DNA of 64,000 nt, taken from contig NZ_CP047897.1 in assembly GCF_009913235.1 (NCBI RefSeq), positions 3,285,001 to 3,349,000 on the forward strand. Direction: 5' to 3'. Source of the DNA: Nibribacter ruber (GTDB taxonomy: Bacteria > Bacteroidota > Bacteroidia > Cytophagales > Hymenobacteraceae). Both the position numbers and the translations under genes were made by a program. The notes beneath the pieces are model-generated. The model did no database searches and had not been told where the DNA came from. It saw nothing but the letters and a program-made list of their open reading frames with translations. Below are positions 2,604 through 63,684 of this stretch, one piece after another (position 1 is the stretch's first letter; each line of letters opens with the position of its first letter).

Positions 2604-2641
2604 CGTTTTTGGGCTATTTCCTGGAAAACAGGCCAAAAACG
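2604..2641. repeat. 38-bp palindromic element, copy 1
   Basis: Outer arms CGTTTTT/AAAAACG perfect; inner hexamers GGGCTA and CAGGCC pair only in part. Lies between two same-direction genes, 43 bp after the receiver stop and 46 bp before ispD. Confidence 0.9.
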
Positions 2642-2687
2642 GTTCGCCTTCTAGCTACCTTCTTAGGTTTAGCTATCTTGCAGCGTC

Positions 2688-3395
2688 ATGCAAGAACAAG
2701 ACTTTCCTACATATGCCGTAGTGGTGGCCGGCGGCTCTGGCAGCCGCATGCAGGCGCAGGTGCCCAAGCAGTTTCTGCCGGTGGGCGGCTTGCCCGTGCT
2801 CATGCACACGCTGCTTCGGTTTCAAGCCTATGACGCGCACATGCCAATTGTGCTGGTATTGCCCGCCGCTGAAATCCCTACCTGGCAAGAGCTCTGTTTG
2901 CAGCATGACTTCAAGGTAAAGCACAATGTGGTGGCCGGTGGCAAAACCCGGTTTCAGTCGGTGCAGAATGGGTTGGCCGCTCTGAGGTCATTTGAAGACG
3001 GAGTGGTGGCGGTGCATGACGGCGTTCGGCCGTTTGTGACCCAGGAAATCATACGCACCGCTTTTGAGACGGCCCATGACAAAGGAACCGCGGTAGTGAC
3101 TGTGCCATTGAAAGACTCTATTAGAAGAGTGACGGGCGCCGCCTCCAAAGCCGTGAATAGAAACGCCTACCGGCTGGTGCAGACGCCGCAGTGCTTCAGG
3201 CTGCCGCTTCTGCGCCGGGCGTATGAACAGACGGAGAGCGCTCAGTTCACCGATGATGCCTCTGTGGTGGAGAAGTTTGGGCATAAGATTCATCTGGTGG
3301 AAGGGGCCTACCAGAACATAAAGCTCACCACCCCAGAAGATATGCTTTTGGCGGAGGCCTTTTTGGCGGCAGAGCAAGCAGGCCAGAAGCAATAA
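2688..3395 (+). CDS. ispD: 2-C-methyl-D-erythritol 4-phosphate cytidylyltransferase
   Basis: Third step of the MEP isoprenoid pathway: joins CTP and methylerythritol phosphate to form CDP-methylerythritol, in the cytoplasm. The 235-residue length is typical. The N-terminal nucleotide-binding signature AGGSGSRM followed by PKQFLPVGG is plain, as are AVHDGVRPF (metal/CTP site) and TDDASVVE near the C-terminus. It stands alone between two 38-bp elements. A weak -7-like TATCTTG lies just upstream of the ATG, so the leader may be very short. Confidence 0.95.
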   Translation: MQEQDFPTYAVVVAGGSGSRMQAQVPKQFLPVGGLPVLMHTLLRFQAYDAHMPIVLVLPAAEIPTWQELCLQHDFKVKHNVVAGGKTRFQSVQNGLAALRSFEDGVVAVHDGVRPFVTQEIIRTAFETAHDKGTAVVTVPLKDSIRRVTGAASKAVNRNAYRLVQTPQCFRLPLLRRAYEQTESAQFTDDASVVEKFGHKIHLVEGAYQNIKLTTPEDMLLAEAFLAAEQAGQKQ

Positions 3396-3430
3396 ACACC
3401 CATCCTCCGTACACTTTCCCATTCTACCTT

Positions 3431-3925
3431 ATGGAAACTCCTGGAATAGTAGATCTACCCGAGAAGGTGCTGGTAGGTTTGCGTATCAACACCACGTTGG
3501 CAGAGGACAGCGCGCCCGCCTTATGGGGACAGTTTATGCCGCGCCGCAAGCATATTGCAAACAGCATAGGGCAGGAGTTGTATTCAGTGGAGGTATACCC
3601 AGAAGGCTATTTTCTGGAGACTCCGCAACCATCTGCCGTTTTTGAGAAATGGGCGGCGGTAGAAGTAGCGGCCCACCAAGAAGTGACTGGCTTTGATACA
3701 TTGATGGTGCCCGCCGGAAAGTATGCCGTGTTTGTACACAAGGGCCCTTCGCATGAGTTTTATAAAACGGCCCAGTACATTTTTGGGGTCTGGTTACCCA
3801 CTTCAGGCTTCGTGCTGGATCACAGGCCGCATTTTGAAGTGATGGGGCCTAAGTACCTGGGACATCTGCATCCAGATTCTGAAGAAGAGATTTGGGTGCC
3901 TGTACGGGAAGCTCTTTCGCTTTAA
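3431..3925 (+). CDS. GyrI-like / AraC effector-binding domain protein
   Basis: A 164-residue free-standing effector-binding domain of the GyrI-like (SOUL/AraC_E_bind) fold, which binds small hydrophobic or cationic ligands; some members are hydrolases or gyrase inhibitors. The recognisable parts are the central strand FDTLMVPAGKYAVFVHKG, the following FYKTAQYIFGVWLP helix and the C-terminal EEEIWVPV strand with its acidic residue. No DNA-binding helix-turn-helix is attached, so it is not a regulator by itself. Starts 35 bp after ispD and may share its transcript. The ligand cannot be told from sequence. Confidence 0.8.
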   Translation: METPGIVDLPEKVLVGLRINTTLAEDSAPALWGQFMPRRKHIANSIGQELYSVEVYPEGYFLETPQPSAVFEKWAAVEVAAHQEVTGFDTLMVPAGKYAVFVHKGPSHEFYKTAQYIFGVWLPTSGFVLDHRPHFEVMGPKYLGHLHPDSEEEIWVPVREALSL

Positions 3926-3954
3926 GCCGGCAGTGCCAGATGACAAGGAGGGTT

Positions 3955-3992
3955 CGTTTTTGCCCTGTTTTCTGGGAAATAGCCTAAAAACG
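3955..3992. repeat. 38-bp palindromic element, copy 2
   Basis: Between convergent genes, 29 bp after the GyrI-like stop. Inner hexamers GCCCTG and TAGCCT match poorly, so only the outer arms and the centre are palindromic. Confidence 0.9.
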
Positions 3993-4834: not shown

Positions 4835-4837
4835 ATC

Positions 4838-4920: not shown

Positions 4921-4926
4921 AAAATA

Positions 4927-6213: not shown

Positions 6214-7533
6214 TTAGGCTGTTTTGTTACTGCTAGAAGTAGTTCTTTTCTTCAGGAGCTCAATCAGCTCGTTTTTGGTGCGCAGTTTCCGGTTGAAATT
6301 CTTAATCTTTCCTTCCAGCATGTTTCGGAAGGTTTCATTGCTCTGGTTAGGGTGCAGGCGGTCCAGGTTGGTTTGCAACACCTCCAGCTCGGCTTTGTCT
6401 GACTTGATGAACTCACGCAGCGCGTTGATGCGGGCATGAACCTGGTCGTTTTCAGAATTCTTGCCTTCTGGTAAGGGACGCTTGCGCATGTAGTGCTCCA
6501 AGCTACTCATCTCAAAGATCTTGTCACACGCCACCAGGAAACTTTCCCAAACGGCGTCAGACTCGTCCTGTTTTACGGGGCCCACCTTCTTCCAGGCGGC
6601 CTGCAGTTCTTTGGCGCGCGAGACGGCTTCTGAGGTGGGTCGCTCCAGAAGTTCCTCGGCTTCGGCTACCAAAGATTTTTTCCGGGCCAGGTTGTCTTCC
6701 AGGTATTTGTCCTTGGACTCGGTCTTCTGGCTGTTGATATGCTTTTTAAGACGCTCAAAGAAATGGTTGTTGGCCGCCCTGAAGCTGTTCCAGAGGTCAT
6801 TGGACATCTTGCGGGGCAGAGTGCCCCCAATCTCTTTCCACTGGTTCTGCAGGTCTTTGAGTTTCTTGCTGGTCTCTTCCCATTCCTCAGAGTTCTTCAC
6901 GGCCTCAGACTGGGCAATCAACGCCTTGTACTTGTCTACCGTGCGGGAGAGCATGTCCTTCTTGTCCTGGAAGAACTCCTTTTTGCGGGTAAAGAAAGCC
7001 TCTACGGCGGTTCTAAAGCGCTCCTCCAGCTCGTCGGTCAGGTTTTTTTCTACAGGACCGGTCTTGATCCAGGTCTGGCGCATCTCCTTGAGCTTGTCTG
7101 AGGTCTCCTGCCAGTCAATGCTGTTGATGAGCTCCTCGGCTTGCTGAATGAGGGTTACCTTGGTAGAAAGGTTCTTGTCGCGGTTGCGGGCAATGGCAGT
7201 CTTAATCTCTTCTTCGGCCGCGGTGAGGCGGTGGTGCAGGGCCTCAAAGTCCCCAATGGCGTCATATTTCTCCACCTGTTCTTTCAGGTGCAGGACTTTC
7301 ATCAGGAAGGAACCTTTGTTCTCAGAGGTCTCTATTTTCTCCAGCAGATGGTCCACCTTCTGTCTAAAGTTCTCAAAACGGTTGGCAAAGTAGAGCAGGG
7401 AATCTTCGGGCACCTCCTTTACTTCGCCTACCTGGCGGGCCGGGAAATTCATGAATGGCTTAAGCCATACCTGGGTTCCCTCCACGTAGCCGAACTTATG
7501 GGCTTCCTCAGACAAATCTTTGGTTTCCATCAA
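6214..7533 (-). CDS. DUF349 repeat protein
   Basis: A 439-residue, highly charged, all-helical cytoplasmic protein with repeated DUF349 units, each seen as a pattern such as W..TSDKLKEMRQTWIKTGPV, then R..FRTAVEAFFTRKKEFF. At least four units are visible (near residues 140-210, 215-285, 290-350 and after). The C-terminal 70 residues form a basic coiled coil. The family is widespread in Bacteroidota and no biochemical role is settled. It faces ettA across a 253-bp divergent gap holding copy 3 of the 38-bp element. Confidence 0.85.
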   Translation of the reverse strand: MMETKDLSEEAHKFGYVEGTQVWLKPFMNFPARQVGEVKEVPEDSLLYFANRFENFRQKVDHLLEKIETSENKGSFLMKVLHLKEQVEKYDAIGDFEALHHRLTAAEEEIKTAIARNRDKNLSTKVTLIQQAEELINSIDWQETSDKLKEMRQTWIKTGPVEKNLTDELEERFRTAVEAFFTRKKEFFQDKKDMLSRTVDKYKALIAQSEAVKNSEEWEETSKKLKDLQNQWKEIGGTLPRKMSNDLWNSFRAANNHFFERLKKHINSQKTESKDKYLEDNLARKKSLVAEAEELLERPTSEAVSRAKELQAAWKKVGPVKQDESDAVWESFLVACDKIFEMSSLEHYMRKRPLPEGKNSENDQVHARINALREFIKSDKAELEVLQTNLDRLHPNQSNETFRNMLEGKIKNFNRKLRTKNELIELLKKRTTSSSNKTA

Positions 7534-7702
7534 CTGGATAATTTTCTAAAAATGGATAGTCTATTTTCCTACAAGTTTATGAATTGCCGTCAATTTTCAT
7601 AACCCCGCACCGCCAAAATTGCGATATTTGCGAGCCTAGGCAACAACATTCCAAGCCGGACGTCTGCATACATACTGATTTCTGAGGATGAATGTTCCAG
7701 TG

Positions 7703-7740
7703 CGTTTTTAGGCTATTTTTGTGAAAACAGGTCAAAAACG
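7703..7740. repeat. 38-bp palindromic element, copy 3
   Basis: In the divergent gap between DUF349 and ettA, 46 bp before the ettA start. Inner hexamers AGGCTA/CAGGTC. Confidence 0.9.
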
Positions 7741-7786
7741 ATTTCTTAGCCGCTAAGCACCAGTATCTAACCATAGCAATAGGTTC

Positions 7787-9454
7787 ATGAGCAACGAAAC
7801 CATCATCTTCTCCATGGCGGGGGTAAGCAAGATTTACCCACCCCAGAAACAAGTTCTTAAAAACATTTACCTCTCTTTCTTCTACGGGGCCAAAATTGGC
7901 GTGCTGGGCCTCAACGGCTCTGGTAAGTCTTCCCTCTTAAAGGTGATTGCCGGCGTAGACAAAGCCTATCAAGGCGAAGTGGCGTTCTCGCCGGGCTATT
8001 CTGTGGGTTACCTGGAGCAGGAACCGCAGCTAGACCCCACCAAAACCGTGATGGAGATTGTGCAGGAAGGCGTAGCCGAAACGGTGGCCCTCTTAAAGGA
8101 GTTTGACGAAATCAACGAGGCTTTTGCCCAAGAAGACGCCGACTTTGACAAGCTCATTGCCCGCCAGGGCGAAGTGCAGGAACGCCTGGACCATTTAGGT
8201 GCCTGGGAACTGGACAGCAAACTGGAGCGCGCCATGGACGCCCTGCGCACACCGCCCTCTGAGGCTATCATTGGTAACCTGTCTGGTGGTGAGAAACGTC
8301 GCGTAGCCCTTTGCCGCCTGCTGTTGCAAGAGCCAGACGTGTTGCTCCTAGATGAACCTACCAACCACTTGGACGCCGAATCTGTTCTGTGGCTGGAGCA
8401 ACACTTACAACAATACAAAGGCACCGTCATAGCCGTAACCCACGATAGATACTTCTTAGATAAAGTAGCCGGCTGGATTCTGGAATTGGACCGTGGCGAG
8501 GGTATTCCCTGGAAAGGAAACTACACCAGCTGGCTAGAGCAGAAGTCTGAGCGTTTGGCCAAGGAAGAGAAAACCGAAAGCAAGCGTCAGAAAACCTTAC
8601 AGCGTGAATTAGAGTGGGCTCGCATGTCGCCTAAGGCGCGTCAGGCCAAGTCTAAAGCGCGTTTGGGCAATTATGAGAAAATGGCCTCTGAGGAAGCAAA
8701 AGAGAAAGAACAAAGACTGGAGCTCTTCATTCCAGACGGTCCGCGTTTGGGTAATGTTGTGATTGAAGCCGAAAACCTGAAAAAGGCCTACGGGGACAAG
8801 CTCCTCTTTGAAGACCTAACTTTCAATTTGCCACCAGCGGGTATTGTAGGCATCATCGGGCCGAATGGTGCGGGTAAATCTACCTTGTTTAGGTTAATCA
8901 CGGGCCGTGAAACGCCAGACGCTGGTACCATCAACGTGGGCCCAACCGTAGAATTCGCCTACGTAGACCAGCAGCACGAAAGCCTGGACCCCAACAAGTC
9001 TGTGTTTGAGACCATCTCGGGTGGTACGGAGACTATGCTTTTGGCCGGACGTCAAGTGAACGCCCGCGCCTATGTGAGCAAGTTCAACTTTAGTGGCGGT
9101 GACCAGGAGAAGAAAGTAGGCGTGCTGTCTGGGGGTGAGCGTAACCGCGTGCACCTGGCCATGACCCTCAAGCAAGGTGCCAACTTGCTCCTTCTGGATG
9201 AACCTACCAACGACCTGGACGTGAACGCCATCCGCGCTTTGGAAGACGCGTTGGAGAACTTCGCGGGTTGCGCCGTAGTCATCTCTCACGACCGCTGGTT
9301 CTTGGATAGAATTGCCACCCACATCCTGGCCTTTGAGGGCGACTCCCAAGTAGTCTGGTTTGAAGGAAACTTCTCAGACTATGAAGAAGCGAAGAAGAAA
9401 CGCCTGGGTGATGTGGAGCCGAAGCGCATCCGCTACAAGAAGCTGATGGACTAA
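7787..9454 (+). CDS. ettA: Energy-dependent translational throttle protein EttA
   Basis: ABC-F ATPase that binds the ribosomal E site and gates the first peptide bond according to ATP/ADP ratio. The 555-residue length fits. Two ATPase domains are seen: first with Walker A GLNGSGKSS and signature LSGGEKRR, second with GPNGAGKST and LSGGERNR; both Walker B motifs read LLLDEPTN. Between them lies the charged linker (ERLAKEEKTESKRQKTL), and the EttA-type arm insert follows the first Walker A. No membrane segments are present, which rules out a transporter. Confidence 0.95.
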   Translation: MSNETIIFSMAGVSKIYPPQKQVLKNIYLSFFYGAKIGVLGLNGSGKSSLLKVIAGVDKAYQGEVAFSPGYSVGYLEQEPQLDPTKTVMEIVQEGVAETVALLKEFDEINEAFAQEDADFDKLIARQGEVQERLDHLGAWELDSKLERAMDALRTPPSEAIIGNLSGGEKRRVALCRLLLQEPDVLLLDEPTNHLDAESVLWLEQHLQQYKGTVIAVTHDRYFLDKVAGWILELDRGEGIPWKGNYTSWLEQKSERLAKEEKTESKRQKTLQRELEWARMSPKARQAKSKARLGNYEKMASEEAKEKEQRLELFIPDGPRLGNVVIEAENLKKAYGDKLLFEDLTFNLPPAGIVGIIGPNGAGKSTLFRLITGRETPDAGTINVGPTVEFAYVDQQHESLDPNKSVFETISGGTETMLLAGRQVNARAYVSKFNFSGGDQEKKVGVLSGGERNRVHLAMTLKQGANLLLLDEPTNDLDVNAIRALEDALENFAGCAVVISHDRWFLDRIATHILAFEGDSQVVWFEGNFSDYEEAKKKRLGDVEPKRIRYKKLMD

Positions 9455-9457
9455 GTC

Positions 9458-9514
9458 CGTTTTTCACTTATTTTCCAGAAAAGAGCCCGAAAACGAAAGT
9501 CTTCGGGCTCTTTT
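9458..9514. terminator. 38-bp element (copy 4) merged with a terminator
   Basis: The element spans 9458-9495. Its right half (AAAAGAGCCCGAA, 9479-9491) also forms a perfect 13-bp stem with 9502-9514 (TTCGGGCTCTTTT), giving a U-ending hairpin 25 bp after the ettA stop. The left hexamer CACTTA is the most divergent of all copies. Confidence 0.85.
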
Positions 9515-10816: not shown

Positions 10817-10878
10817 CGTTTTTGCCCTGTTTTCACCAAAAGAGCCCCAAAACGCTAAGTTCTCGGGCTCTTTTGGTG
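10817..10878. terminator. 38-bp element (copy 5) merged with a bidirectional terminator
   Basis: The element is 10817-10854. From its centre, 10834-10847 (CACCAAAAGAGCCC) pairs perfectly over 14 bp with 10865-10878. It lies between convergent genes, and both strands give an A-rich then U-rich stem, so it can stop transcription from either side. Confidence 0.85.
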
Positions 10879-12453: not shown

Positions 12454-12510
12454 CGTTTTTAGCCTGTTTTCATGAAAAGAGCCCGAAAACGCTAGGTCTT
12501 CGGGCTCTTT
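12454..12510. terminator. 38-bp element (copy 6) merged with a terminator
   Basis: Element 12454-12491; its right half (12476-12487, AAAGAGCCCGAA) forms a perfect 12-bp stem with 12499-12510. Between the convergent esterase and YceI genes, so it likely ends both transcripts. Confidence 0.85.
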
Positions 12511-13233: not shown

Positions 13234-13539
13234 AGGTGTGTAGTTGAAGATGGATGGGTGGTTGCTGTAACCTACTGGTTGAATTGACTTGAACGGCGAT
13301 TTACCTTCTTGGTTATGAGTAGGTTGGTGGTTCTTAAAAGGATTGGTTGCAATAGACTTTATAAGACGAGCATGTTCGTTTTTGGCCTGTTTTCTGGGAA
13401 ATAGCCTAAAAACGGCCTTGGGTGAGGCGCTGTAGAGGGCAGGCTGTTAATGTTTTGTTAAACACGGCCCGAAAGGCGACAAGTGCCTTTGATTTTAGCT
13501 AACATTAACTTCCCAACCATTCACCTACTATACAAACAC
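13234..13539. other. Divergent intergenic region between yceI-like and barrel genes
   Basis: 306 bp holding promoters for both flanking genes and copy 7 of the 38-bp element. I could not assign a confident -33/-7 pair for either gene. Confidence 0.5.
13377..13414. repeat. 38-bp palindromic element, copy 7
   Basis: In a divergent gap, 125 bp before the barrel gene start. Right half identical to copy 2 (centre TTTTCTGGGAAA plus TAGCCT). Confidence 0.9.
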
Positions 13540-16339: not shown

Positions 16340-16391
16340 CGTTTTTAGCCTGTTTTTCTGGAAAGAGCCCCAAACCAAATGGGGCTCTTTC
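16340..16391. terminator. Degenerate 38-bp element (copy 8) merged with a terminator
   Basis: Starts 4 bp after the barrel gene stop. The left half is normal, but the right outer arm is decayed (CAAACCA instead of AAAAACG). The stem 16361-16371 with 16381-16391 (GAAAGAGCCCC/GGGGCTCTTTC) is perfect and followed by a short T-rich run. Confidence 0.8.
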
Positions 16392-18657: not shown

Positions 18658-18695
18658 CGTTTTTGGCCTGTTTGCCAGAAAACAAGCCAAAAACG
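18658..18695. repeat. 38-bp palindromic element, copy 9
   Basis: 24 bp after the kinase stop, before a same-direction TonB receptor gene. Inner hexamers GGCCTG/CAAGCC pair at 5 of 6 positions. Confidence 0.9.
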
Positions 18696-21218: not shown

Positions 21219-21256
21219 CGTTTTTGGCTTATTTTCTAGGAATTAGGCGAAAAACG
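21219..21256. repeat. 38-bp palindromic element, copy 10
   Basis: 70 bp after the TonB receptor stop, convergent gap. Inner hexamers GGCTTA/TAGGCG; the centre has GGAAT in place of GGAAA. Confidence 0.85.
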
Positions 21257-25293: not shown

Positions 25294-25331
25294 CGTTTTT
25301 GGGCTGTTTTCTGGGAAATAGCCCAAAAACG
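25294..25331. repeat. 38-bp palindromic element, copy 11
   Basis: Abuts the serine-hydrolase terminator hairpin, sharing two bases (CG) with it. Inner hexamers GGGCTG/TAGCCC pair fully if a G-T wobble is allowed. Confidence 0.9.
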
Positions 25332-27068: not shown

Positions 27069-27106
27069 CGTTTTCGGGCTATTTTCTGGAAAACAAGGCA
27101 AAAACG
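27069..27106. repeat. 38-bp palindromic element, copy 12
   Basis: Divergent gap. The palindrome extends 6 bp beyond each end (CTTTGT/ACAAAG). It lies between the -7 element and the ruvX ATG (7 bp after), making it the probable 5' leader. Confidence 0.9.
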
Positions 27107-28149: not shown

Positions 28150-28187
28150 CGTTTTTGGGCTGTTTTGGCGAAAAGAGGCAGAAAACG
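28150..28187. repeat. 38-bp palindromic element, copy 13
   Basis: Directly abuts the def terminator; convergent gap. Inner hexamers GGGCTG/GAGGCA, right arm GAAAACG (one change). Confidence 0.85.
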
Positions 28188-30705: not shown

Positions 30706-30743
30706 CGTTTTTAGCTTGTTTCCCAGAAAACAGACCAAAAACG
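30706..30743. repeat. 38-bp palindromic element, copy 14
   Basis: Between same-direction genes. Inner hexamers AGCTTG/CAGACC, poorly paired. Confidence 0.9.
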
Positions 30744-33412: not shown

Positions 33413-33450
33413 CGTTTTTTGCCTGTTTCCTGGAAATCAAGCCAAAAACG
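33413..33450. repeat. 38-bp palindromic element, copy 15
   Basis: 63 bp before the homogentisate dioxygenase start, downstream of a canonical terminator. Inner hexamers TGCCTG/CAAGCC. Confidence 0.9.
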
Positions 33451-34712: not shown

Positions 34713-34713
34713 C

Positions 34714-34751
34714 GTTTTTGGCTTGTTTTCTGAGAAACATGCCAAAAACGG
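34714..34751. repeat. 38-bp palindromic element, copy 16
   Basis: Begins 1 bp after the hmgA stop codon, between that stop and the hmgA terminator. Inner hexamers GGCTTG/CATGCC. Confidence 0.9.
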
Positions 34752-35430: not shown

Positions 35431-35468
35431 CGTTTTTAGCCTCTTTTTCCCAAAACAAGCCAAAAACG
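35431..35468. repeat. 38-bp palindromic element, copy 17
   Basis: 65 bp before the GroES-like gene, upstream of its -7 element. Inner hexamers AGCCTC/CAAGCC. Confidence 0.9.
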
Positions 35469-36319: not shown

Positions 36320-36669
36320 TCGTTTTTTTGAGTAAGATACCACCTTTTCAGAAATGCCGCCCGGTTTTTTCTATCCTGCTTCCTCCTTGTCGTTTTTGCC
36401 CTGTTTTCCAGAAAATAGCTTAAAAACGGACGCGCCAGTGTTCGGTTTCAGGTCACCTTTGTTCAGTTTCGAACAGTGTTTATAATAATAAATTAATGTA
36501 AGTAATTGATAATCAATAATTTTTATAATTGGCACAGCGATTGTCTTCTGAACAGTAGCGTTAAAAGTGGATCACGTGCAACGGTTAAAGGAAACAGTTG
36601 TCTTTGCAGTGAACTTGTGGTAGCAGCGTGGGCGCCTTGGTTAAATTCTCATGTAAACGAATGTAGCGT
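36320..36669. other. Divergent AT-rich gap
   Basis: Holds copy 18 of the 38-bp element and an AT-rich stretch (about 36478-36530) before the small secreted protein. No resolved promoter. Confidence 0.5.
36391..36428. repeat. 38-bp palindromic element, copy 18
   Basis: In a divergent gap, 71 bp upstream of the DUF3566-like start. Inner hexamers GCCCTG/TAGCTT, unpaired. Confidence 0.9.
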
Positions 36670-38518: not shown

Positions 38519-38556
38519 CGTTTTTGGTCTGTTTCCTAGAAAACAGACCAAAAACG
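38519..38556. repeat. 38-bp palindromic element, copy 19
   Basis: 24 bp after hemN. Fully paired inner hexamers GGTCTG/CAGACC; the palindrome extends 4 bp on each side (AAAG/CTTT). Confidence 0.92.
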
Positions 38557-39157: not shown

Positions 39158-39195
39158 CTTTTTTGGCCTATTTCCCAGAAAACAAGCCAAAAACG
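39158..39195. repeat. 38-bp palindromic element, copy 20
   Basis: Left arm CTTTTTT (second base changed); inner hexamers GGCCTA/CAAGCC. Convergent gap before hemJ. Confidence 0.85.
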
Positions 39196-39891: not shown

Positions 39892-39929
39892 CGTTTTTGG
39901 GCTTTTTTCCAGGAAACAGCCTAAAAACG
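39892..39929. repeat. 38-bp palindromic element, copy 21
   Basis: Directly abuts the stop codon (39930-39932) of the minus-strand barrel gene, between it and hemJ. Inner hexamers GGGCTT/CAGCCT. Confidence 0.9.
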
Positions 39930-40544: not shown

Positions 40545-41351
40545 CTAGAAGTGAATTCGCTCTAAGGTGACAATGTCACCCACCACGGTGACCAGCATGT
40601 AGCTGCGCTTGATGGCGGCGTCTACGGTCAGGTAGGGAATGCCGTCATTGTAGAGCTGCTCATAGCGGTAGTTGTGCGTGTGGCCGTGCATGGACATCTT
40701 CACGTTGTACTGGCGCATAAGGCTGGCGTATTTCTGTTCTTTGTTGGGGTTGGCCTCTGAGTTGTTGGGCGCCATGTGCGAGATGACGAATTTGTTGGGC
40801 GTGCCTTCGGCGTTCTTCAGTTCTTGCTCCAGCCAGGTCACATCGGGCACCTTGTCGTCAAACTCCAGGAAGTTGGTGTTCAGGAAGATGAATTTGTTGG
40901 GGCCAAACGTGAAGGAGTAGTCAAAGGGGCCGTACATGCGCTGGTAGAGTTTTTTGCCTTCGCCCAGGCAGTCATGGTTGCCCACTACGGTCATATACGG
41001 CACGTTGAGCTTAGACAAGGCCATGTGCATGCGCTCAAACTCGTCTGTGAAAGCATAGTTGGTCAGGTCGCCGGCGTGCAGCACAAAGGCAAGGTTGCGG
41101 CGATTCATGTCAGCGATCATGTCCTCGGTCTCCTCATAATAGCCCTGGGTATCTCCCGTAAACGCGAAGCGCAGGGGAGTGGCAGGGTCATACGTCGCCT
41201 CAATTTCTTTGATTCTTTGAAGATTCTTCTGGGTGAGGCCCTGGTAGTCTATGTTGCCCGCATATGGGTGGTAGTCTATGAGGTCACAAGAGGGGAGAAG
41301 CGCTAAGAGAAGCAGCCAGCCGCATAACCGGTAAAGGTGTGGCATACGCAT
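40545..41351 (-). CDS. Lipoprotein metallophosphoesterase
   Basis: 268 residues. Signal with lipobox LLPSC (near residue 22), then a calcineurin-like phosphoesterase domain with ordered metal motifs: FTGDTQG, HAGDLTNYA, VGNHDC, VISHMAP and HGHTHNY. Such proteins are exported phosphatases or phosphodiesterases; substrate unknown. First gene of a two-gene operon with the barrel. Divergent from the lipoprotein-like gene at 41.5 kb. Confidence 0.88.
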   Translation of the reverse strand: MRMPHLYRLCGWLLLLALLPSCDLIDYHPYAGNIDYQGLTQKNLQRIKEIEATYDPATPLRFAFTGDTQGYYEETEDMIADMNRRNLAFVLHAGDLTNYAFTDEFERMHMALSKLNVPYMTVVGNHDCLGEGKKLYQRMYGPFDYSFTFGPNKFIFLNTNFLEFDDKVPDVTWLEQELKNAEGTPNKFVISHMAPNNSEANPNKEQKYASLMRQYNVKMSMHGHTHNYRYEQLYNDGIPYLTVDAAIKRSYMLVTVVGDIVTLERIHF

Positions 41352-41508
41352 AAGATGAAGCGGAAAAGTGTATAAGCAGTTTTGGATGAGGCCTGGCAGT
41401 AGAGACGGCCCCAGAGGTGGGTGTTTCTACTACGTAAAGACTGTGGGAACCTACGTAGAAGTCCAAAAAAAGGATGTGGTAAAATGCTTAAAACCTGTTC
41501 ATTATCAT

Positions 41509-41516
41509 TATATTTG
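41509..41516 (+). promoter_or_regulatory. -7 element TAtaTTTG
   Basis: Exact TAnnTTTG, 17 bp before the ATG at 41533, which supports that start over an earlier in-frame one. Confidence 0.55.
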
Positions 41517-41532
41517 TTTTCAGGTGCTTTCT

Positions 41533-42021
41533 ATGTCTTTGCTGCAGAGAGTTTTATTTTCCTCTTTTTCGATACTCTTAACAGGAGCGAGCGCCTGCCA
41601 GCGAATGGAAAACACCCCAGAAACCAACAACACGTCCTCTACTTCCCCTGGTAAGCGTCTGAGGGCCTCGGCGGCCAGGCCCCAACTGCCTGAGCAGGAC
41701 GCCCTGGCACCTGATCAGGTACACGTATGGGTGCGGGTGGTGGACGTGTTGCCCGTTTTGGATAAAACCGATACCGGCCCCTGTGGACAATCCCCCTGTT
41801 CAGCAGAGGTGTTGGTAGAGAAAGTGCTGGCGTACGGGGCTGCCTTTACGGCCAACCTGGCGCAAGGGCAGCAGGTGCGGGTGCATTTTCCCATGACGCT
41901 AGAGGCAGTTGCAGGTCGTCCGGCCATAAAGGTGGGTGACAGGTTAGACGCCCTGTTGTCACAGACGGCTGCACCTGAAGGAACAAACTACCGCATGCAT
42001 GGGTTTGCCCTTCTGCCATGA
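41533..42021 (+). CDS. Putative small lipoprotein of unknown function
   Basis: 162 residues from MSLLQRVLFSSFSILLTGASAC, a lipoprotein signal. After an Asn/Thr/Ser linker comes a beta-rich domain with two close cysteines (GPCGQSPCSAEVL) between HVWVRVVDVLPV and VRVHFPMTLE, resembling an OB-type small barrel. The cysteines may bind metal or form a disulphide. Ends 65 bp before the T9SS cargo gene. No family recognised. Confidence 0.65.
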   Translation: MSLLQRVLFSSFSILLTGASACQRMENTPETNNTSSTSPGKRLRASAARPQLPEQDALAPDQVHVWVRVVDVLPVLDKTDTGPCGQSPCSAEVLVEKVLAYGAAFTANLAQGQQVRVHFPMTLEAVAGRPAIKVGDRLDALLSQTAAPEGTNYRMHGFALLP

Positions 42022-42086
42022 GAAGTAGTTGCCCGGCATTTTACAACCAAGCTTAAACAAACAATTACTCTATCTATACTTATTGC

Positions 42087-44957
42087 ATGAAAATTACGCA
42101 GCAGCAACGGCAGGTTGGCCTATCCAGCGCCTTGCTATTCTTCTTTGGAGCCCTTCTGTACATGGCCTCCTTCTTGCCAGGGCCGCTACACCCGAGCGCT
42201 TACTCTTCAAAAAAAGGAACCGGCAAGATTGGCGTTGACGCCAGGGCCGCAAGACTTCACAAACAGGGCTCCATTGGCACCCCAGAAAACCCCAATGCCC
42301 GTTCAGAATATGAGTTTGAGCGCCTCAAAGACCCAAAAACTGGCAGAATACCTGAGAACATAAGAGAGCGGGAGCTGGATTTTGCGTCCCATATTCCTAC
42401 GGCAGAGCAGGTTCTTCGGCAGAAAAACCCTTATTCCCGCATGGCATCGGCTAACTGGAGCCGCCGCGGACCTTACAACGTGGGCGGCCGCACGAGAGCC
42501 TTTGCCTTTGACGTGACCAATGAGAACGTTCTCTTGGCAGGCGGCGTGTCTGGCGGTATGTGGCGAAGCACCAACGGCGGTAACTCCTGGGCAAAAGTGA
42601 CCGAGGCTAATGAACTGCAAAGCGTGACCACCGTGGCGCAGGACAAAAGACCCGGCAAAACCAACATCTGGTACTATGGAACCGGTGAACTCTTGGGCAA
42701 CTCCGCCAGCAAGGTGGGAGCCAGCTATTACGGCAACGGCATGTTCAAGTCTGTGGACAACGGCGTGACCTGGAATCCCTTAACCACCACCCAAGTGCCC
42801 AACAACACAGCTTTTTACAACGTGTTTGAGTTTGTGTACCGCGTGGCAACGGGTGTCTCCACCACCATGGATGAAGTGTATGCGGCCCTTCCGGGCGTAA
42901 TCATGCGCTCCACCAACGGAGGTAGCACCTGGAACCCGGTCCTTGGTTTCGGAAAAGAGACCCAGGATTTTGCCAAAAGCTCTTACTTTACAGACATTAC
43001 AGTGTCTCCTTCTGGGGTGAAGTACGCCGGCATGAGCCAGTATGCATCTGGCAACGGTAGTTCTCTCACCAAAGGCGCCTTCCGGTCTACGGACGGCGTT
43101 ACCTGGACAGACATTACCCCAACCACTTGGCCTGCCACCTATGAGCGTATGGTCATGGATGTGTCTAAGTCCAATGAGAACATTGTCTACTTCTTTGTAT
43201 ATGTAGAAAATGCCTCTGGCGCTGAGACTCCTAACCTTTGGAAATATGAGTACCTGTCTGGCACCGGCGCCGGTGCGGGCGGAACCTGGACCAACCTGAG
43301 CGCCAACATTCCCATGCTGGGCGGCAAGTCTGGTGACTTGAGTCTGCAGGGCGGCTACAACATGGTGGTGAAGGTGAAGCCAGACAACCCCAACGTAGTG
43401 ATTCTGGGAGGAACCAACCTTTACATTTCTACCAACGGCTATACTTCTACCTCGGCCACCAAGAAAATTGGCGGCTATACTGTTACCAACGCCAACTACT
43501 CTCTATACCCATCTCACCATCCAGATCAGCACGAGGTAGCTTTTTCACTTACTTCTCCTTCGCGCGTGTACTCTGCGCATGACGGTGGCATTAGCAAGAC
43601 AACCAATGTGCTGGCTTCTGAAGTGGAGTGGGCTTCTTTGAACCGCGGTTACCTCACCACTCAGTTTTATACCGTAGCCATGGACCTGAACACCACCGAC
43701 AACTTTATTGTGGGAGGCCTGCAGGACAACGGAAGCTGGTCAACAGAAACCACGGCAGAGACCAGTATCTGGGAAGAAGTACTGGGCGGCGACGGTGCTT
43801 TCACCGCTGTGACGGCGCACTCCTTGCTGGTCTCTGTGCAGAACGGTACCATCTACCGCTTCATTTTCGGCGAGGATGGTTTATACACCGGCCAGTACAG
43901 CCGTGTAGATCCGCCTAAGGCCACCGGTTACTTGTTCATCAACCCGTACAACATTGATCCGAACAACGAGCAGACCATGTACCTACCGGCCGGTGACACC
44001 CTATGGCGCAACAAGAACATTGATGCCCTGCCAAGAGGCGGCAGCCAGTCGGCCACGGGCTGGGAGGTGATTGCGGCTCTCAATACCAATGAGGTGATTT
44101 CTGCCGTGGGCGTGAGCAAAGTGCCTGCCAACATGGTGTACTTTGGCACCAGAGGCGGCAAGCTGTATAGAATACAAGATGGCTTGGCAACAACGCCTTC
44201 TAAAATTGACGTGACCGGCATCAACTTCCCATCTGGGAACATTGGTTGTATTGCCGTAGATCCCCGTGACGCCAACAAAGTAGTGGTAGCCTTTACCAAC
44301 TACGGCATTATTAGTTTGTACGCCACAGAAAACGGCGGAGCTTCCTGGACCCCGGTGGCGGGTAACCTGGAGCAGAACCCTAACGGCTCGGGCAACGGTC
44401 CTTCTACCCGCTGGGTAAGCATCTTGCCAAGCAGAAACGGTAACCTGAAGTATTTTGTGGGCACCAGCACCGGATTGTACGCCACCTCGCAGCTGAATGG
44501 AGACAACACCACCTGGGTGCAGGAGGGCGCCAACTCTATTGGACAGGTGCCGGTAGACATGGTGATCAGCAGAACCACAGATGACCTGGTGGTAGTAGGG
44601 ACCCACGGAAACGGTGTGTACAGCGCTCGCTATGACGGTCCTCTGGCCTCTGCAGATGAAGTGGAACTGGCTACGCAAGTAGGCTTGGGCAATAGCTATC
44701 CAAACCCATTCCGGAAGGGGTCTTTGACTACCATTCCGTTTACCCTGGAGAAAGCCGCCCAGGTGAATCTGACCGTCTTTGACTTAACCGGAAGAGCCGT
44801 GGCTACTCTGGTGAATGGCAAGCTGACCTCGGGTAGACATGTTGCCACCTGGAACGGTGCCGGCACCGGTAAGCAGAGCCTGCCTACGGGTACGTACTTG
44901 TATCAACTCACCGTTGATGGCAAGCGGGAAACCAAGCGCGTGGTCTTTGTTAAATAA
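42087..44957 (+). CDS. T9SS-exported BNR-repeat (sialidase/Vps10-like) protein
   Basis: 956-residue secreted protein. A signal peptide (hydrophobic to about residue 33) is followed by a propeller with repeated BNR-type motifs: GGMWRSTNGGNSW, GMFKSVDNGVTW, IMRSTNGGSTW, FRSTDGVTW, SLYATENGGASW. The last ~85 residues are a type IX C-terminal sorting domain: NSYPNPF, a LTVFDLTGRAVATLVNG turn and the final GTYLYQLTV..RVVFVK. It is therefore exported by T9SS and displayed on the surface or released. The Asp-box blades suggest glycan or peptide binding; no catalytic residues are evident. Confidence 0.88.
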   Translation: MKITQQQRQVGLSSALLFFFGALLYMASFLPGPLHPSAYSSKKGTGKIGVDARAARLHKQGSIGTPENPNARSEYEFERLKDPKTGRIPENIRERELDFASHIPTAEQVLRQKNPYSRMASANWSRRGPYNVGGRTRAFAFDVTNENVLLAGGVSGGMWRSTNGGNSWAKVTEANELQSVTTVAQDKRPGKTNIWYYGTGELLGNSASKVGASYYGNGMFKSVDNGVTWNPLTTTQVPNNTAFYNVFEFVYRVATGVSTTMDEVYAALPGVIMRSTNGGSTWNPVLGFGKETQDFAKSSYFTDITVSPSGVKYAGMSQYASGNGSSLTKGAFRSTDGVTWTDITPTTWPATYERMVMDVSKSNENIVYFFVYVENASGAETPNLWKYEYLSGTGAGAGGTWTNLSANIPMLGGKSGDLSLQGGYNMVVKVKPDNPNVVILGGTNLYISTNGYTSTSATKKIGGYTVTNANYSLYPSHHPDQHEVAFSLTSPSRVYSAHDGGISKTTNVLASEVEWASLNRGYLTTQFYTVAMDLNTTDNFIVGGLQDNGSWSTETTAETSIWEEVLGGDGAFTAVTAHSLLVSVQNGTIYRFIFGEDGLYTGQYSRVDPPKATGYLFINPYNIDPNNEQTMYLPAGDTLWRNKNIDALPRGGSQSATGWEVIAALNTNEVISAVGVSKVPANMVYFGTRGGKLYRIQDGLATTPSKIDVTGINFPSGNIGCIAVDPRDANKVVVAFTNYGIISLYATENGGASWTPVAGNLEQNPNGSGNGPSTRWVSILPSRNGNLKYFVGTSTGLYATSQLNGDNTTWVQEGANSIGQVPVDMVISRTTDDLVVVGTHGNGVYSARYDGPLASADEVELATQVGLGNSYPNPFRKGSLTTIPFTLEKAAQVNLTVFDLTGRAVATLVNGKLTSGRHVATWNGAGTGKQSLPTGTYLYQLTVDGKRETKRVVFVK

Positions 44958-44976: not shown

Positions 44977-45012
44977 AAAAAAAGCGGCCCTTGCAGAAGG
45001 GTCGCTTTTTTT
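44977..45012 (+). terminator. Terminator after T9SS protein gene
   Basis: AAAAAAAGCG with CGCTTTTTTT enclosing GCCCTT/AAGGGT (one wobble), U-run at the end. 20 bp after the stop. Confidence 0.85.
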
Positions 45013-45019: not shown

Positions 45020-45057
45020 CGTTTTTGGCTTGTTTTAGTGAAAACAGGCTAAAAACG
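45020..45057. repeat. 38-bp palindromic element, copy 22
   Basis: Convergent gap, 5 bp after the hemB stop. Inner hexamers GGCTTG/CAGGCT. Confidence 0.9.
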
Positions 45058-46260: not shown

Positions 46261-46297
46261 CGTTTTTGGGCTGTTTTCTCGGAACAGCCCAAAAACG
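46261..46297. repeat. 37-bp form of the palindromic element, copy 23
   Basis: The only copy that is one base short. Inner hexamers GGGCTG/CAGCCC pair perfectly and the palindrome extends beyond each end (GCGGT/ACCGC), making it the most perfect hairpin in the set. 25 bp after the rhomboid stop. Confidence 0.92.
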
Positions 46298-49773: not shown

Positions 49774-49811
49774 CGTTTTTAGCCTGTTTTGTGGAAATTA
49801 GGCCAAAAACG
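49774..49811. repeat. 38-bp palindromic element, copy 24
   Basis: Divergent gap. Inner hexamers AGCCTG/TAGGCC, centre with GTGGAAAT. Confidence 0.9.
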
Positions 49812-50379: not shown

Positions 50380-50417
50380 CGTTTTTAGCCTAATTCCCAG
50401 AAAACAACCCAAAAACG
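50380..50417. repeat. 38-bp palindromic element, copy 25
   Basis: Divergent gap, 22 bp before the -7 element of the DUF5522 gene. Inner hexamers AGCCTA/CAACCC. Confidence 0.88.
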
Positions 50418-52643: not shown

Positions 52644-52681
52644 CGTTTTTGGCCTGTTTTAGCAGAAATAGCGCAAAAATG
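52644..52681. repeat. 38-bp palindromic element, copy 26
   Basis: 15 bp after the M24 stop. Right arm ends AAAAATG instead of AAAAACG; inner hexamers GGCCTG/TAGCGC. Confidence 0.85.
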
Positions 52682-54233: not shown

Positions 54234-54271
54234 CGTTTTTGGGCTGATTTCCAGAAAAGAAGCCAAAAACG
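54234..54271. repeat. 38-bp palindromic element, copy 27
   Basis: Starts 2 bp after the ftsY stop. Inner hexamers GGGCTG/GAAGCC, centre ATTTCCAGAAAA. Confidence 0.9.
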
Positions 54272-55896: not shown

Positions 55897-55934
55897 TGTT
55901 TTTAGCCTGATTCTCAGGAAACAAGCTAAAAACG
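55897..55934. repeat. 38-bp palindromic element, copy 28
   Basis: 2 bp after the rimO stop; first base changed (TGTTTTT). Inner hexamers AGCCTG/CAAGCT. Confidence 0.88.
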
Positions 55935-56145: not shown

Positions 56146-56183
56146 CGTTTTTGGTCTCTTTTTCAGAAAACAAGTCAAAAACG
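56146..56183. repeat. 38-bp palindromic element, copy 29
   Basis: Follows the palindrome cluster by 14 bp. Inner hexamers GGTCTC/CAAGTC. Confidence 0.88.
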
Positions 56184-57911: not shown

Positions 57912-58484
57912 ATGTTAAAGGCCCATCTCAGAAAAGCCTACCTGGCCAAACGCCGCAATCTCTCTGAGGCCGAGGTGGAGGATATGAGCCTCCAGATAGC
58001 AAATCGGTTTTTTGAGGATTTCCAGCCGGTGAAAGGGCAGACGGTGCATGTTTTTCTACCCATTCTGCACCACCGTGAAATCAATACCTGGCGCATCATC
58101 CATAAACTTTGGGAACAGTTCCCAGAGGTGCGGGTGGCTACGTCTGTCTCGCATCTGGAGGATTGCAGTATGACGCATTTCCTCATTACCCCAGAAACCA
58201 AACTGGTCACCAACCGCTGGGGAATTCCTGAGCCGGTACAAGCCCAGCAAATCACAGAACAAGAAATTGATTTGGTGCTGGTGCCGTTGCTGGTGTTTGA
58301 TTTGCAAGGCCACCGCGTAGGCTACGGCAAAGGGTTCTATGATCGTTTTTTGGCTTTTTTACCCAAAACAAGCCAAAAACGAGGCCTGTCCTTAGAGCCG
58401 CCGGTTCCCAAAATTGAAGACGTGCACCCTTTGGATCTAATCTTAGATGCCGTGATTACCCCTCAACAGACCTTCTGGTTCTAG
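57912..58484 (+). CDS. 5-formyltetrahydrofolate cyclo-ligase containing a 38-bp element
   Basis: Converts 5-formyl-THF to 5,10-methenyl-THF with ATP (MTHFS; ygfA in E. coli). 190 residues: basic N-terminal helix (LRKAYLAKRRNLSE), VHVFLPILHHREINTW, and the nucleotide/folate motif GYGKGFYDRF near residue 140. Directly after that motif the frame reads through copy 30 of the dispersed element (codons for RFLAFLPKTSQKR), then resumes with GLSLEPPVP and ends normally at LDAVITPQQTFWF. By recalled family alignment the length of this loop is unchanged, so the protein is probably active. Confidence 0.9.
   Translation: MLKAHLRKAYLAKRRNLSEAEVEDMSLQIANRFFEDFQPVKGQTVHVFLPILHHREINTWRIIHKLWEQFPEVRVATSVSHLEDCSMTHFLITPETKLVTNRWGIPEPVQAQQITEQEIDLVLVPLLVFDLQGHRVGYGKGFYDRFLAFLPKTSQKRGLSLEPPVPKIEDVHPLDLILDAVITPQQTFWF
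58344..58381. repeat. 38-bp palindromic element inside a coding region, copy 30
   Basis: Perfect outer arms and 38-bp length; inner hexamers TGGCTT/CAAGCC pair at 4 of 6. The only copy inside a gene, about 100 bp before its stop. Confidence 0.92.
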
Positions 58485-62022: not shown

Positions 62023-62033
62023 TTTGAATGATC

Positions 62034-63428
62034 ATGAAGAAGTTATATATTTTACTCCTGTCGGGTGTACTGCTGGGGGGGTGCAATAATTTTGACGACG
62101 ATATTAACATTACCCCGAACGCGCCAAGTGCGTCTTCAGGGATGCAGCTGCTGGCCAACGCCATGCTCTCGCTGCCAGGGCTGGGTTCTTCGCCGCAGGG
62201 TGAATTCATGGCGCAGTACCTAGCGGAGACCCAATACCCTACGGCCTCTCTTTATCCTACCGGCGGCACCAGCTTTTATGGGTTGTACCAAGGGCCGTTG
62301 ATGAACATAGAGGAGACGCTCAAGTCGCAGGACCTGAATACTTTGCAAGGACCTATCGCTAACCAACTGGCGGTGGCCAAAATCTTGAAAGCCTATTACT
62401 TCTGGCATATCACAGACCGCTGGGGAGACGTTCCTTACTCCCAGGCCTTGCAGGGGAACGCTAATTTCACGCCCGCCTATGATACGCAGGAGTCTATCTA
62501 CAACAGCCTGTTTGTATTGCTGAAAGAGGCCAACGACCAGATAGTGCCTGGCAACGTGACCAATGACATCATCTACAACGGTGACATGACCAAGTGGAAG
62601 AAGCTGGGCAACACCATCAGATTACTGATGGCGCTGCGCCTTTCCAACGTGAACCCTACCAAAGGCAAGGCAGAATTCAACGCAGCTCTTACCGATGGCA
62701 TCATGACCAGCAACGCCGATAGCTTTGTGTTTAAACACCTCCTGGACGCCAACAACCAGAACTACTGGTACGGTGAAGTGAGCAGGGGCCGCGAATGGTG
62801 GGCCTTAACCCAAACGCTGGTAGATTACATGAAGCCGGTAGAGGATCCGCGCCTGCTCGTGTATGGCCAACCCACCAAAACCACCAAAGAATACGTGGGT
62901 CTGCCCTTCGGGACTACGGCGGGTATGCCGAACACGTCCTCTTACTCCCTGTTAGGGACGGCCATCTTCGCGCAGAATGCCCCGGTCTATCTGGTGACCT
63001 ATGCCCAGGCCCTGTTTGCCAAGGCCGAGGCCGCTAAATTAGGTTGGATTGATGGCGGTGACGCAGAGGCTAAAATCAACTATGACCTGGCGGTGCAGAA
63101 CTCCATCCTGCAATGGACCGGAAGCACCAACGGAGCCAGTGCCTTGCTGGCCCAGCCCGGCATTGCCTATGACCCCGCCAATGCCCTGCAGCAGATTGGC
63201 AACCAGCGCTACGTGCACCTGTTCATGAACGGGTATGAAGCCTGGGCAGAATGGAGAAGGACCGGTTACCCTAACAACCTGGTCCCTTCGGGTGGGAATG
63301 CGGTCCCTACCCGCAATATGTACCCCTCAGATGAAGCCTTCCTGAACGCAGCAAACTACAATGCAGCCGTGCAAAGATTAAACGGCGGAGATACGCTGTA
63401 CGGAAAAGTATGGTGGGACAAAGACTAG
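62034..63428 (+). CDS. SusD/RagB family nutrient-binding lipoprotein
   Basis: Surface lipoprotein that captures substrate for the SusC porin. 464 residues from MKKLYILLLSGVLLGGC with lipobox LGGC; an ATG two codons earlier is also possible. The SusD-like 2 family is shown by the early INITPNAPSAS, tetratricopeptide helices (AKILKAYYFWHITDRWGDVPYSQAL, split), and the C-terminal GYEAWAEWRRTGYP. Starts 11 bp after SusC; the pair is one operon. Confidence 0.93.
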   Translation: MKKLYILLLSGVLLGGCNNFDDDINITPNAPSASSGMQLLANAMLSLPGLGSSPQGEFMAQYLAETQYPTASLYPTGGTSFYGLYQGPLMNIEETLKSQDLNTLQGPIANQLAVAKILKAYYFWHITDRWGDVPYSQALQGNANFTPAYDTQESIYNSLFVLLKEANDQIVPGNVTNDIIYNGDMTKWKKLGNTIRLLMALRLSNVNPTKGKAEFNAALTDGIMTSNADSFVFKHLLDANNQNYWYGEVSRGREWWALTQTLVDYMKPVEDPRLLVYGQPTKTTKEYVGLPFGTTAGMPNTSSYSLLGTAIFAQNAPVYLVTYAQALFAKAEAAKLGWIDGGDAEAKINYDLAVQNSILQWTGSTNGASALLAQPGIAYDPANALQQIGNQRYVHLFMNGYEAWAEWRRTGYPNNLVPSGGNAVPTRNMYPSDEAFLNAANYNAAVQRLNGGDTLYGKVWWDKD

Positions 63429-63443
63429 CCAACCATTGCTCAT

Positions 63444-63485
63444 AAAAAAAGAGAAGGCTGGGTTTGTCCAGCCTTCTCTTTTTTT
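63444..63485. terminator. Terminator of SusC/SusD operon
   Basis: Stem GAGAAGGCTGG (63451-63461) with CCAGCCTTCTC (63468-63478), A-run before and T-run after; also works on the other strand. Confidence 0.92.
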
Positions 63486-63646
63486 ATGGGTTTTATTGAA
63501 TAGAATCTGTTCAGTAAAGAAGAAGAGGCATGTAGTACAGCTACCTTTTAATGGTATAACCAACAGACCTAATGGAAGCGATGTTCTACTTGTTGGTGAT
63601 AACACCAACAAGGGTGACTGTAATAAGTGTTTAGGAAGGATATTCC

Positions 63647-63684
63647 CGTTTTTGGGCTGTTTTCCAGGAAATAGCCCAAAAACG
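63647..63684. repeat. 38-bp palindromic element, copy 31
   Basis: Convergent gap. Inner hexamers GGGCTG/TAGCCC (one wobble), centre TTTTCCAGGAAA. Confidence 0.92.

Follow-up and report, generated by a model that had tools for sequence, protein, structure and literature searches.

The window analysed here, a 64,000-nucleotide stretch of the Nibribacter ruber chromosome (assembly GCF_009913235.1, contig NZ_CP047897.1, positions 3,285,001 to 3,349,000 of the forward strand), is punctuated by a short palindromic element, of which the original prediction had claimed 30 copies at 38 bp and one at 37 bp, a count borne out by both a pattern search and a refined profile. The element has two arms at a fixed spacing and a conserved core; in the source genome (G000, a 4.35-Mb chromosome) its arms vary independently of each other, it sits at gene boundaries, its positions are shared between species, and its spelling changes in concert from one species to another. 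The explanation that we favour, tentatively and with somewhat less than even confidence, is that the element is a double-stranded site that would be read by a protein and would mark the boundaries of transcription units.

The window was searched with a pattern of 24 specified positions in which up to 7 mismatches were allowed, yielding 32 distinct places, one of which, an in-gene match at 51278 with 5 mismatches, fell under the cut-off of the refined profile and was excluded from the count. Across 464 kb of G000, a profile trained on 31 window matches gave 205 places scoring at least 14, 202 of these at least 28, with zero places scoring at least 8 in an order-3 Markov control. The reversed pattern gave no match in 14 of 16 Rufibacter genomes and one each in the congeners G009 and G010; together these controls rule out a chance origin, and because the reversed pattern matches once in G009, the 2 loose-pattern matches found there carry little weight. 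Confinement to the window is ruled out by 196 exact pattern matches across the G000 genome and by a 1.024-Mb sample, made up of 49 stretches in 21 contiguous pieces, which holds 429 copies and extrapolates to ∼1,820 per chromosome. Twenty of the stretches had been picked partly near exact matches; 14 others, at ∼2.0–2.3 Mb, were picked irrespective of matches and hold 107 copies in 280 kb, or ∼1,660 per genome. Density was 2–6 copies per 10 kb in all 49 stretches, with no evident trend between origin and terminus. The GC skew of G000 flips sign near ∼0.6 and 2.8 Mb, suggesting that these places, rather than base 1, mark the terminus and origin. Copies are spaced slightly more evenly than under reshuffled occupancy (coefficient of variation 0.93 versus 1.01, a value reached in 3% of simulations), and a co-directional gap that is occupied tends to be somewhat farther from the next copy (p 0.017–0.018); this effect is small, and occupancy tracks the class of gap much more than it tracks spacing.

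The predicted layout of conserved ends and centre with variable hexamers was reproduced by the refined profile over 402 G000 arms. Each arm is 19 bp long, CGTTTTT-RGSYTR-TTTTC-N, and two arms face each other at a fixed distance, with T at arm positions 4–6 and 15–16 in 398–401 of the 402 arms and variation at positions 8, 10, 11, 13, 17 and 19; the base immediately outside the element is mostly Y on the left and R on the right. An exact GTTTT is present at positions 2–6 in 376 arms and at positions 13–17 in 151, so that no strict double motif holds throughout. In 141 of 201 G000 copies the centre reads TG or CA; in congeners it looks, by eye, less fixed. Half-sites are practically never found alone, which rules out reading them as transposon ends: among those scoring at least 23 in 624 kb, 441 lie within elements and 2 outside, both belonging to length variants (the 37-bp copy and a slightly longer one), while at a score of at least 14 there are 528 within elements, 10 outside and 5 in the control.

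Most G000 copies are not hairpins, since their arms vary independently without compensation. Hexamers of facing arms form 748 pairs against 770 expected (standard deviation 11) in 201 copies and, in the 382 copies of the larger sample that lack complementary flanks, 1,363 against 1,431 (standard deviation 15.8), with the arms tending to differ from each other at position 13. In co-directional gaps of G000 a wobble test shows no preference for a sense strand (G.T 101 versus A.C 118) and orientation toward the genes is random (24 forward, 26 reverse, 65 ties); dependence of orientation on the replichore is not significant in G000 (p 0.29 and 0.085). The absence of compensatory variation and of a strand preference, together with the random orientation, contradicts for most G000 copies the processing-hairpin role that had been proposed. 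A minority behaves differently: at least 6 of 8 flanking pairs are complementary in 47 of the 429 copies, against ∼10 expected, and in these the arms pair above expectation (225 hexamer pairs versus 201, standard deviation 4.5). In a smaller set, complementarity extends to 6 or more of the 8 flanking bases in 26 of 264 copies, against ∼6 expected, and their arms pair better (16.0 versus 13.9 of 18, p 2e-6). Many of the flank-complementary copies inspected by eye have A before and T after the outer stem, resembling intrinsic terminators. The elements at 38519, 12454 and 25294 lie in or beside terminator-like hairpins, as if terminator and element had fused.

Occupancy depends strongly on how the flanking genes are oriented. 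Genes were called with a simple caller that truncates some starts, so that starts and certain gap lengths are approximate. In gaps of up to 1,000 bp in the 1.024-Mb sample, copies occupy 79 of 96 convergent, 208 of 495 co-directional and 34 of 95 divergent gaps, and at gap lengths of 80–199 bp the respective counts are 32/35, 77/148 and 3/28; just 13 of the 429 copies lie wholly within called genes. Convergent gaps of 40–199 bp hold exactly one copy in 39 of 45 cases, none in 6 and two or more in 0, so that the predicted rule of one copy per transcription-unit boundary stands for convergent gaps and is only partly true elsewhere. For 121 single copies in co-directional gaps of 120–399 bp, the median distance is 41 bp to the upstream stop and 110 bp to the next start; in 66 of them the copy begins no more than 50 bp from the stop codon, and in 24 it begins no more than 10 bp away or overlaps that codon. 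Across 13 species, in gaps of 40–400 bp, occupied gaps number 126 of 144 convergent, 283 of 541 co-directional and 48 of 118 divergent, counts inflated because some congener stretches had been picked for holding a match. Several gaps of ∼100–150 bp (31560/31704, 4786/4927, 5148/5299 and 6108/6214) are without an element in every mapped species; these consistently empty gaps may lie inside operons.

In accordance with the suggestion that the element is not simply a terminator, a separate terminator-like hairpin, as detected by a rough script, is also present in 67 of the 126 occupied convergent gaps of the 13 species, and the free copies show neither overall arm covariation nor a T-tract behind the stem. 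Terminator-like hairpins occur in 73 of 144 convergent gaps in the 13 Rufibacter species and in 20 of 36 in other genera; from those counts, replacement of intrinsic terminators by the element has no support in convergent gaps. In co-directional gaps the counts are 101 of 541 in Rufibacter versus 51 of 162 in other genera, and in one count separate hairpins were rarer in occupied (12/73) than in empty (18/66) co-directional gaps.

Positions are largely shared with the sister species G007. Among 137 orthologous gaps, 68 hold a copy in both genomes, 63 in neither, 4 in G000 only and 2 in G007 only, an agreement in 131 of 137. No clean 38-bp insertion was found in the 4 discordant gaps that were read, nor in the lengths of the others; discordant gaps show longer insertions or sequence decay. 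In 54 one-to-one pairs, identity is 0.97–1.00 at core positions 4–6 and 15–16, which are equally high in unrelated copies because both members are profile hits, and 63–73% at the variable positions (0.63–0.70 at 8, 10, 13, 17 and 19), while the flanks are 0.80 identical where aligned, with about three quarters of flank positions aligning. Variable positions agree more in orthologs than in unrelated copies (position 19: 0.66 versus 0.34), as vertical descent predicts. The comparison was repeated for 17 occupied and 9 empty G000 gaps in 11 congeners, whose median protein identity is ∼70–82% (six measured), with a genus profile that left out the species being tested, and a version of the element was found in 76 of 83 species-by-gap comparisons for gaps occupied in G000, against 1 of 22 for gaps empty there once a single miscalled gap is set aside. 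Judged from these shared positions, the element is not the product of a recent mobile burst.

The spelling of the element shifts between species while the sites stay in place. Iterated profiles give the consensus CGTTTTTGGCCTGTTTTC in G000 and G007, CGTTTTCGGGCTCATTTC in G013, CGTTTAGGGGCTGTTTTT in G005 and CGTTTTAGGCCTGTTTTC in G006, with information per arm ranging from 24.5 bits (G000) down to 10.5 (G009); the profiles of loosely spelled species contain some false sites. In 16 orthologous pairs, position 13 is C in 32 of 32 G013 arms, against G 19, A 7, C 5 and T 1 in G000, and position 14 is A or G in 31 of 32 G013 arms, against T 28 and A 4 in G000; in 12 pairs, position 7 is A in 16 of 24 G006 arms and T in 22 of 24 G000 arms. 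The sites changed together without moving, as a changed reader or an overwriting process would cause. Five congeners (G003, G004, G009, G014 and G015) retain the element at numerous orthologous sites, yet spell it far more loosely, as though its reader had disappeared or become less strict there. In G005, tallied by eye over 30 listed pattern matches, 14 of the 30 (contig C1, ∼0.15–0.72 Mb) are one identical 36-mer, and the centre is TGGA in 16 and the reverse, TCCA, in 1; the identical copies suggest recent copying. The orientation bias is unconfirmed, since the 118 kb of G005 examined contains TTTTTGGAAAAA 4 times and TTTTTCCAAAAA 3 times.

The copies in the window are listed here by position, with the strand in parentheses and, after the semicolon, the evidence.
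2604..2641 (.), 38-bp element; pattern match, copy in orthologous G007 gap
3955..3992 (.), 38-bp element, convergent gap; pattern match, G007 gap
7703..7740 (.), 38-bp element, divergent gap, upstream of ettA; pattern match
9458..9495 (.), 38-bp element right behind the ettA stop codon; pattern match, orthologous-gap comparison
10817..10854 (.), 38-bp element; pattern match, orthologous-gap comparison
12454..12491 (.), 38-bp element, convergent gap, right arm could pair with adjacent downstream DNA; pattern match, orthologous gaps
13377..13414 (.), 38-bp element, divergent gap; pattern match, orthologous-gap comparison
16340..16377 (.), 38-bp element right behind a stop codon; pattern match, orthologous-gap comparison
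18658..18695 (.), 38-bp element; pattern match, orthologous-gap comparison
21219..21256 (.), 38-bp element, convergent gap; pattern match, orthologous-gap comparison
25294..25331 (.), 38-bp element adjoining a separate terminator-like hairpin; pattern match, orthologous gaps
27069..27106 (.), 38-bp element, divergent gap, immediately downstream of a TANNTTTG-type sequence; pattern match, orthologous gaps
28150..28187 (.), 38-bp element; pattern match
30706..30743 (.), 38-bp element; pattern match, orthologous-gap comparison
33413..33450 (.), 38-bp element downstream of a separate terminator-like hairpin; pattern match, orthologous gaps
34713..34750 (.), 38-bp element immediately behind a stop codon (gene end 34712); pattern match, gene calls
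35431..35468 (.), 38-bp element; pattern match
36391..36428 (.), 38-bp element; pattern match
38519..38556 (.), 38-bp element, convergent gap, complementary flanks (terminator-like); pattern match, G007 comparison
39158..39195 (.), 38-bp element, second copy in a gap 675 bp longer than that of G007; pattern match, G007 comparison
39892..39929 (.), 38-bp element immediately behind the stop codon of a − strand gene; pattern match
44977..45012 (.), separate terminator-like hairpin (A-tract, GC stem, T-tract) beside the element at 45020; sequence reading
45020..45057 (.), 38-bp element, convergent gap; pattern match, orthologous gaps
46261..46297 (.), 37-bp copy, right arm one base short; pattern match, half-site scan
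49774..49811 (.), 38-bp element, divergent gap; pattern match, orthologous-gap comparison
50380..50417 (.), 38-bp element, divergent gap, second copy; pattern match, orthologous-gap comparison
52644..52681 (.), 38-bp element; pattern match, orthologous-gap comparison
54234..54271 (.), 38-bp element starting 3 bp behind a stop codon; pattern match, orthologous-gap comparison
55897..55934 (.), 38-bp element starting 3 bp behind a stop codon, then a separate terminator-like hairpin; pattern match, G007 comparison
56146..56183 (.), 38-bp element, second copy in a gap 251 bp longer than that of G007; pattern match, G007 comparison
58344..58381 (.), 38-bp element within the called gene 57912–58484; pattern match, gene calls
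63647..63684 (.), 38-bp element; pattern match

One window copy had been placed in a coding sequence, and the copy that lies within a called gene is the one at 58344. A version of the element upstream of ettA (7703) was seen by eye in 10 Rufibacter species, the source species included, and the copy at 39892 has a clear version in 5 of 6 congener gaps read and a degenerate one in G009. The divergent gap of the elements at 49774 and 50380 holds two copies in G000 and one in G007. The TANNTTTG-type sequence upstream of the element at 27069 is one that we take to be a promoter motif. Between the gene at 6214 and ettA, the region 7530–7787 shows strong genus-wide conservation beyond the element itself. 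Weak NCBIfam matches to SusC/RagA and PorY, scoring under their cut-offs, point to Bacteroidota. The contig CALPQG020000073.1, titled as a Bifidobacterium breve metagenome-assembled genome, carries a gene for an ornithine aminotransferase that shares 75% identity with the one in the window, and the record is probably mislabelled or contaminated.

The generic palindrome pattern is found in 16 of 16 genomes of Rufibacter in the GTDB sense, with 2 to 403 matches each, and in none of 114 other genomes of the family or 383 others of the order (the sets overlap somewhat), so that at this sensitivity the element is, by these searches, limited to the genus. Counted without reference to the motif, palindromes reach 5.0–12.5 per 100 kb in samples from other genera versus 11.5–28.8 in Rufibacter, and most, not all, of the other-genus palindromes (up to 14 examples viewed per group) are terminator-like. 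The G000 spelling had 0 matches in viral contigs, and one consensus 38-mer gave one weak Rhodococcus match in plasmid records; the 0 matches of the G000 spelling in other genome contigs show little, since near genomes may have been excluded and congeners spell the element otherwise.

The original prediction knew of no named family with this layout, and none turned up in Rfam, which gave 0 matches above the gathering score in the window, or in the literature searched, which consisted mostly of listings and the opening lines of abstracts. High-copy interspersed palindromes as a broad kind are already known; the combination of independent arms, two-arm layout, boundary rule, positional conservation and re-spelling is undescribed within that same body of listings and abstracts. 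The nearest relatives in form are the repetitive extragenic palindromes (REP) and bacterial interspersed mosaic elements (BIME), tagged GTAG, and the CGTC repeats, which are likewise short (20–40 bp), extragenic, palindromic and of high copy number. They differ in that our element has no enriched tag, its free G000 arms do not covary, and its positions are shared across the genus; the paired stem of a REP hairpin is not seen in the 382 free copies as a set and is present in the 47 with complementary flanks. CGTC-tagged palindromic repeats are reported from Bacteroidetes too, without a dedicated transposase (PMC3733652). HIP1 of cyanobacteria, which is GCGATCGC and linked to DNA methyltransferases (PMC4390886), is also a palindrome held at very high copy number in one lineage, whereas our element is 38 bp long, internally degenerate and tied to gene boundaries. 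Intrinsic terminators are approached by the ∼1/10 of copies with complementary flanks and paired arms, many of them terminator-like, and differ from the remaining copies, which have neither arm covariation nor a T-tract and coexist with separate terminator-like hairpins. The dyad, with its TTTC..GAAA-like core, may resemble Noc/ParB-type sites; our element departs from these in its 38-bp length, its ∼1,800 copies, its boundary rule and the single ParB_N match per genome. The likeness to a protein-bound operator or insulator lies in the independent arms, the fixed spacing and the conserved core, with arm association in congeners and an excess of perfect hexamers as exceptions.

According to the explanation that we favour, each copy would be a double-stranded, pseudo-symmetric binding site for a putative genus-specific protein, acting as a dimer or larger assembly, with the T-rich cores of the arms (positions 3–7 and 14–17) lying about one helical turn apart and the protein making twofold contacts. 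That a protein reads the element is likely, in our judgement, and is the step with the best support. The putative protein would sit on ∼1,800 sites, located in the majority of convergent gaps and frequently no more than 50 bp past a stop codon, where it would probably mark or insulate the adjacent transcription units, either halting read-through polymerase or blocking the spread of supercoiling, and would act alongside ordinary terminators. In ∼1/10 of copies the site would be embedded in a longer hairpin with complementary flanks, often terminator-like, and a change of specificity in a species would lead to the set of sites being re-spelled in place. That the element insulates transcription or topology is suggested by its position and is held with more doubt than the favoured explanation as a whole; insulation or a topological role would be preferred over termination as such because divergent gaps are occupied. 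Broader still, and in our view unlikely, is a genus-wide boundary code in which one putative protein would read ∼1,800 sites and the set would be rewritten in place partly by copying; the copying is included because one G005 spelling, its unconstrained centre included, recurs in 14 of 30 listed matches.

Several results weigh against a site read by a protein at boundaries. Perfectly matching hexamers occur in 32 of the 382 free copies against 18.3 expected, so that a paired minority exists among the free copies too. While the overall arm-association Z lies between −1.9 and 0.6 in G007, G001, G013, G010, G008, G006 and G009, it is positive in G014 (1.4), G005 (1.6), G003 (2.6), G015 (3.4) and G004 (4.3); association at arm position 7 is positive in G005 and G006, and perfect copies listed for several congeners have, by eye, mostly complementary bases at their unspecified positions. 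A mixture of good and poor sites could be a partial source of the positive Z. The empty-gap control of the congener comparison is also weaker than it had first seemed: 1 of 31 comparisons was positive and 9 of the 31 came from a miscalled gap (the gap called at 41346–42440 is erroneous, with open reading frames of 217 and 956 aa extending into it), leaving 1 of 22 without it, and another cut-off applied to four congeners gave a table of 44, 6, 22 and 4, the four positives in G000-empty gaps all being in G013. The perfect-hexamer excess, the weaker empty-gap control and the absent orientation bias in G005 led us to lower our confidence in the favoured explanation, in its protein step and in the boundary code alike.

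The strongest rival, itself unlikely, holds that the element is the remnant of a REP- or MITE-like (miniature inverted-repeat transposable element) mobile family that spread through intergenic DNA when the genus arose, and that has since been domesticated but continues to be copied or overwritten on occasion. Such a history would suit an element that is not found in sister genera, whose G005 matches include one identical 36-mer at 14 of 30 listed places with a centre of TGGA in 16 and TCCA in 1, and of which certain second copies sit in gaps far longer than those of the sister species. It would also suit the Y1 transposase matches in 15 of 16 Rufibacter genomes (3 in G000, best E 1.7e-6). Set against this are the G000/G007 agreement in 131 of 137 gaps with no clean 38-bp insertion in the discordant ones, the absence of orientation bias between TTTTTGGAAAAA and TTTTTCCAAAAA (4 versus 3), and G007, which has 659 loose-pattern copies yet no Y1_Tnp match at E 0.001. 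GTAG and CGTC tags are likewise not enriched in the flanks: over the 429 copies each tag or its complement turns up 2–15 times per 12-bp flank, versus ∼15 expected. Among the roles listed in the original prediction, a DNA-binding-protein site fits best; the processing hairpin is contradicted for most G000 copies, while the positions shared between species and the copy-rich G007 without a Y1 match speak against recent activity as a REP-like mobile element. An RNA hairpin in the transcript, serving as a bidirectional 3′-end, terminator or processing structure, is rather improbable: the flank-complementary copies (47 of 429 where ∼10 were expected) with their surplus of arm pairing (225 versus 201), the 32 perfect hexamers where 18.3 were expected, the positive arm association in some congeners and the placement biased to 3′ ends would fit it, but the remaining 382 G000 copies pair below expectation, there is no strand preference and orientation is random, the stem has its T-run on the 5′ side and its A on the 3′ side, separate terminator-like hairpins coexist with the element, and divergent gaps are occupied.

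Two further rivals would have the element serve the chromosome as a whole. A role in organising the nucleoid or in segregation, comparable to that of Noc, SlmA or MatP sites, with the element kept to intergenic DNA only because coding sequence could not accommodate it, is improbable; even density (2–6 per 10 kb in 49 stretches) and a protein-site anatomy of independent arms and no lone half-sites would suit it, whereas the sample shows no origin or terminus trend and occupancy depends on gap class at equal length. Rufibacter shows no expansion of ParB-like or HU-like families, which are present in ordinary number, with one ParB_N match in each of the 16 genomes as in 9 other family genomes searched. 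DNA uptake sequences (DUS), in turn, reach very high copy number, and in DUS and uptake signal sequences (USS) a single motif occurs and suffices alone. That the element is such a self-recognition or uptake mark, kept dense through recombination and re-spelled along with its receptor, is quite improbable. Its copy number, species dialects and shared positions do resemble uptake sequences, and its slightly even spacing (0.93 versus 1.01), with occupied co-directional gaps farther from the next copy, points the same way; its half-sites, however, are practically never single, just 13 of 429 copies lie wholly in genes, and gap class outweighs spacing in occupancy. The DUS of Neisseriaceae, whose dialects differ between species (PMC3630211), share with the element a high copy number and a spelling that differs as a set between related species, and differ in that ours is a 38-bp two-armed site, mostly intergenic, with half-sites that are not single (441 versus 2).

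A site read by a protein at gene boundaries would matter for how this genus organises its genome. Terminators are generally held to be the main divide between bacterial transcripts, and a double-stranded mark at most convergent boundaries that keeps its place through long divergence while its spelling changes as a set would add a new layer to genome organisation. The element is directly testable, since it offers a short bait sequence and many replicate sites for the mapping of transcripts and topology, and the loose-consensus congeners could be used for a phyletic gene profile. If our reading is true, the genus would offer a natural experiment in the co-evolution of ∼1,800 sites with one reader, and the boundary code, if it too is true, would amount to a bacterial insulator system resembling chromatin and subject to concerted evolution of its own.

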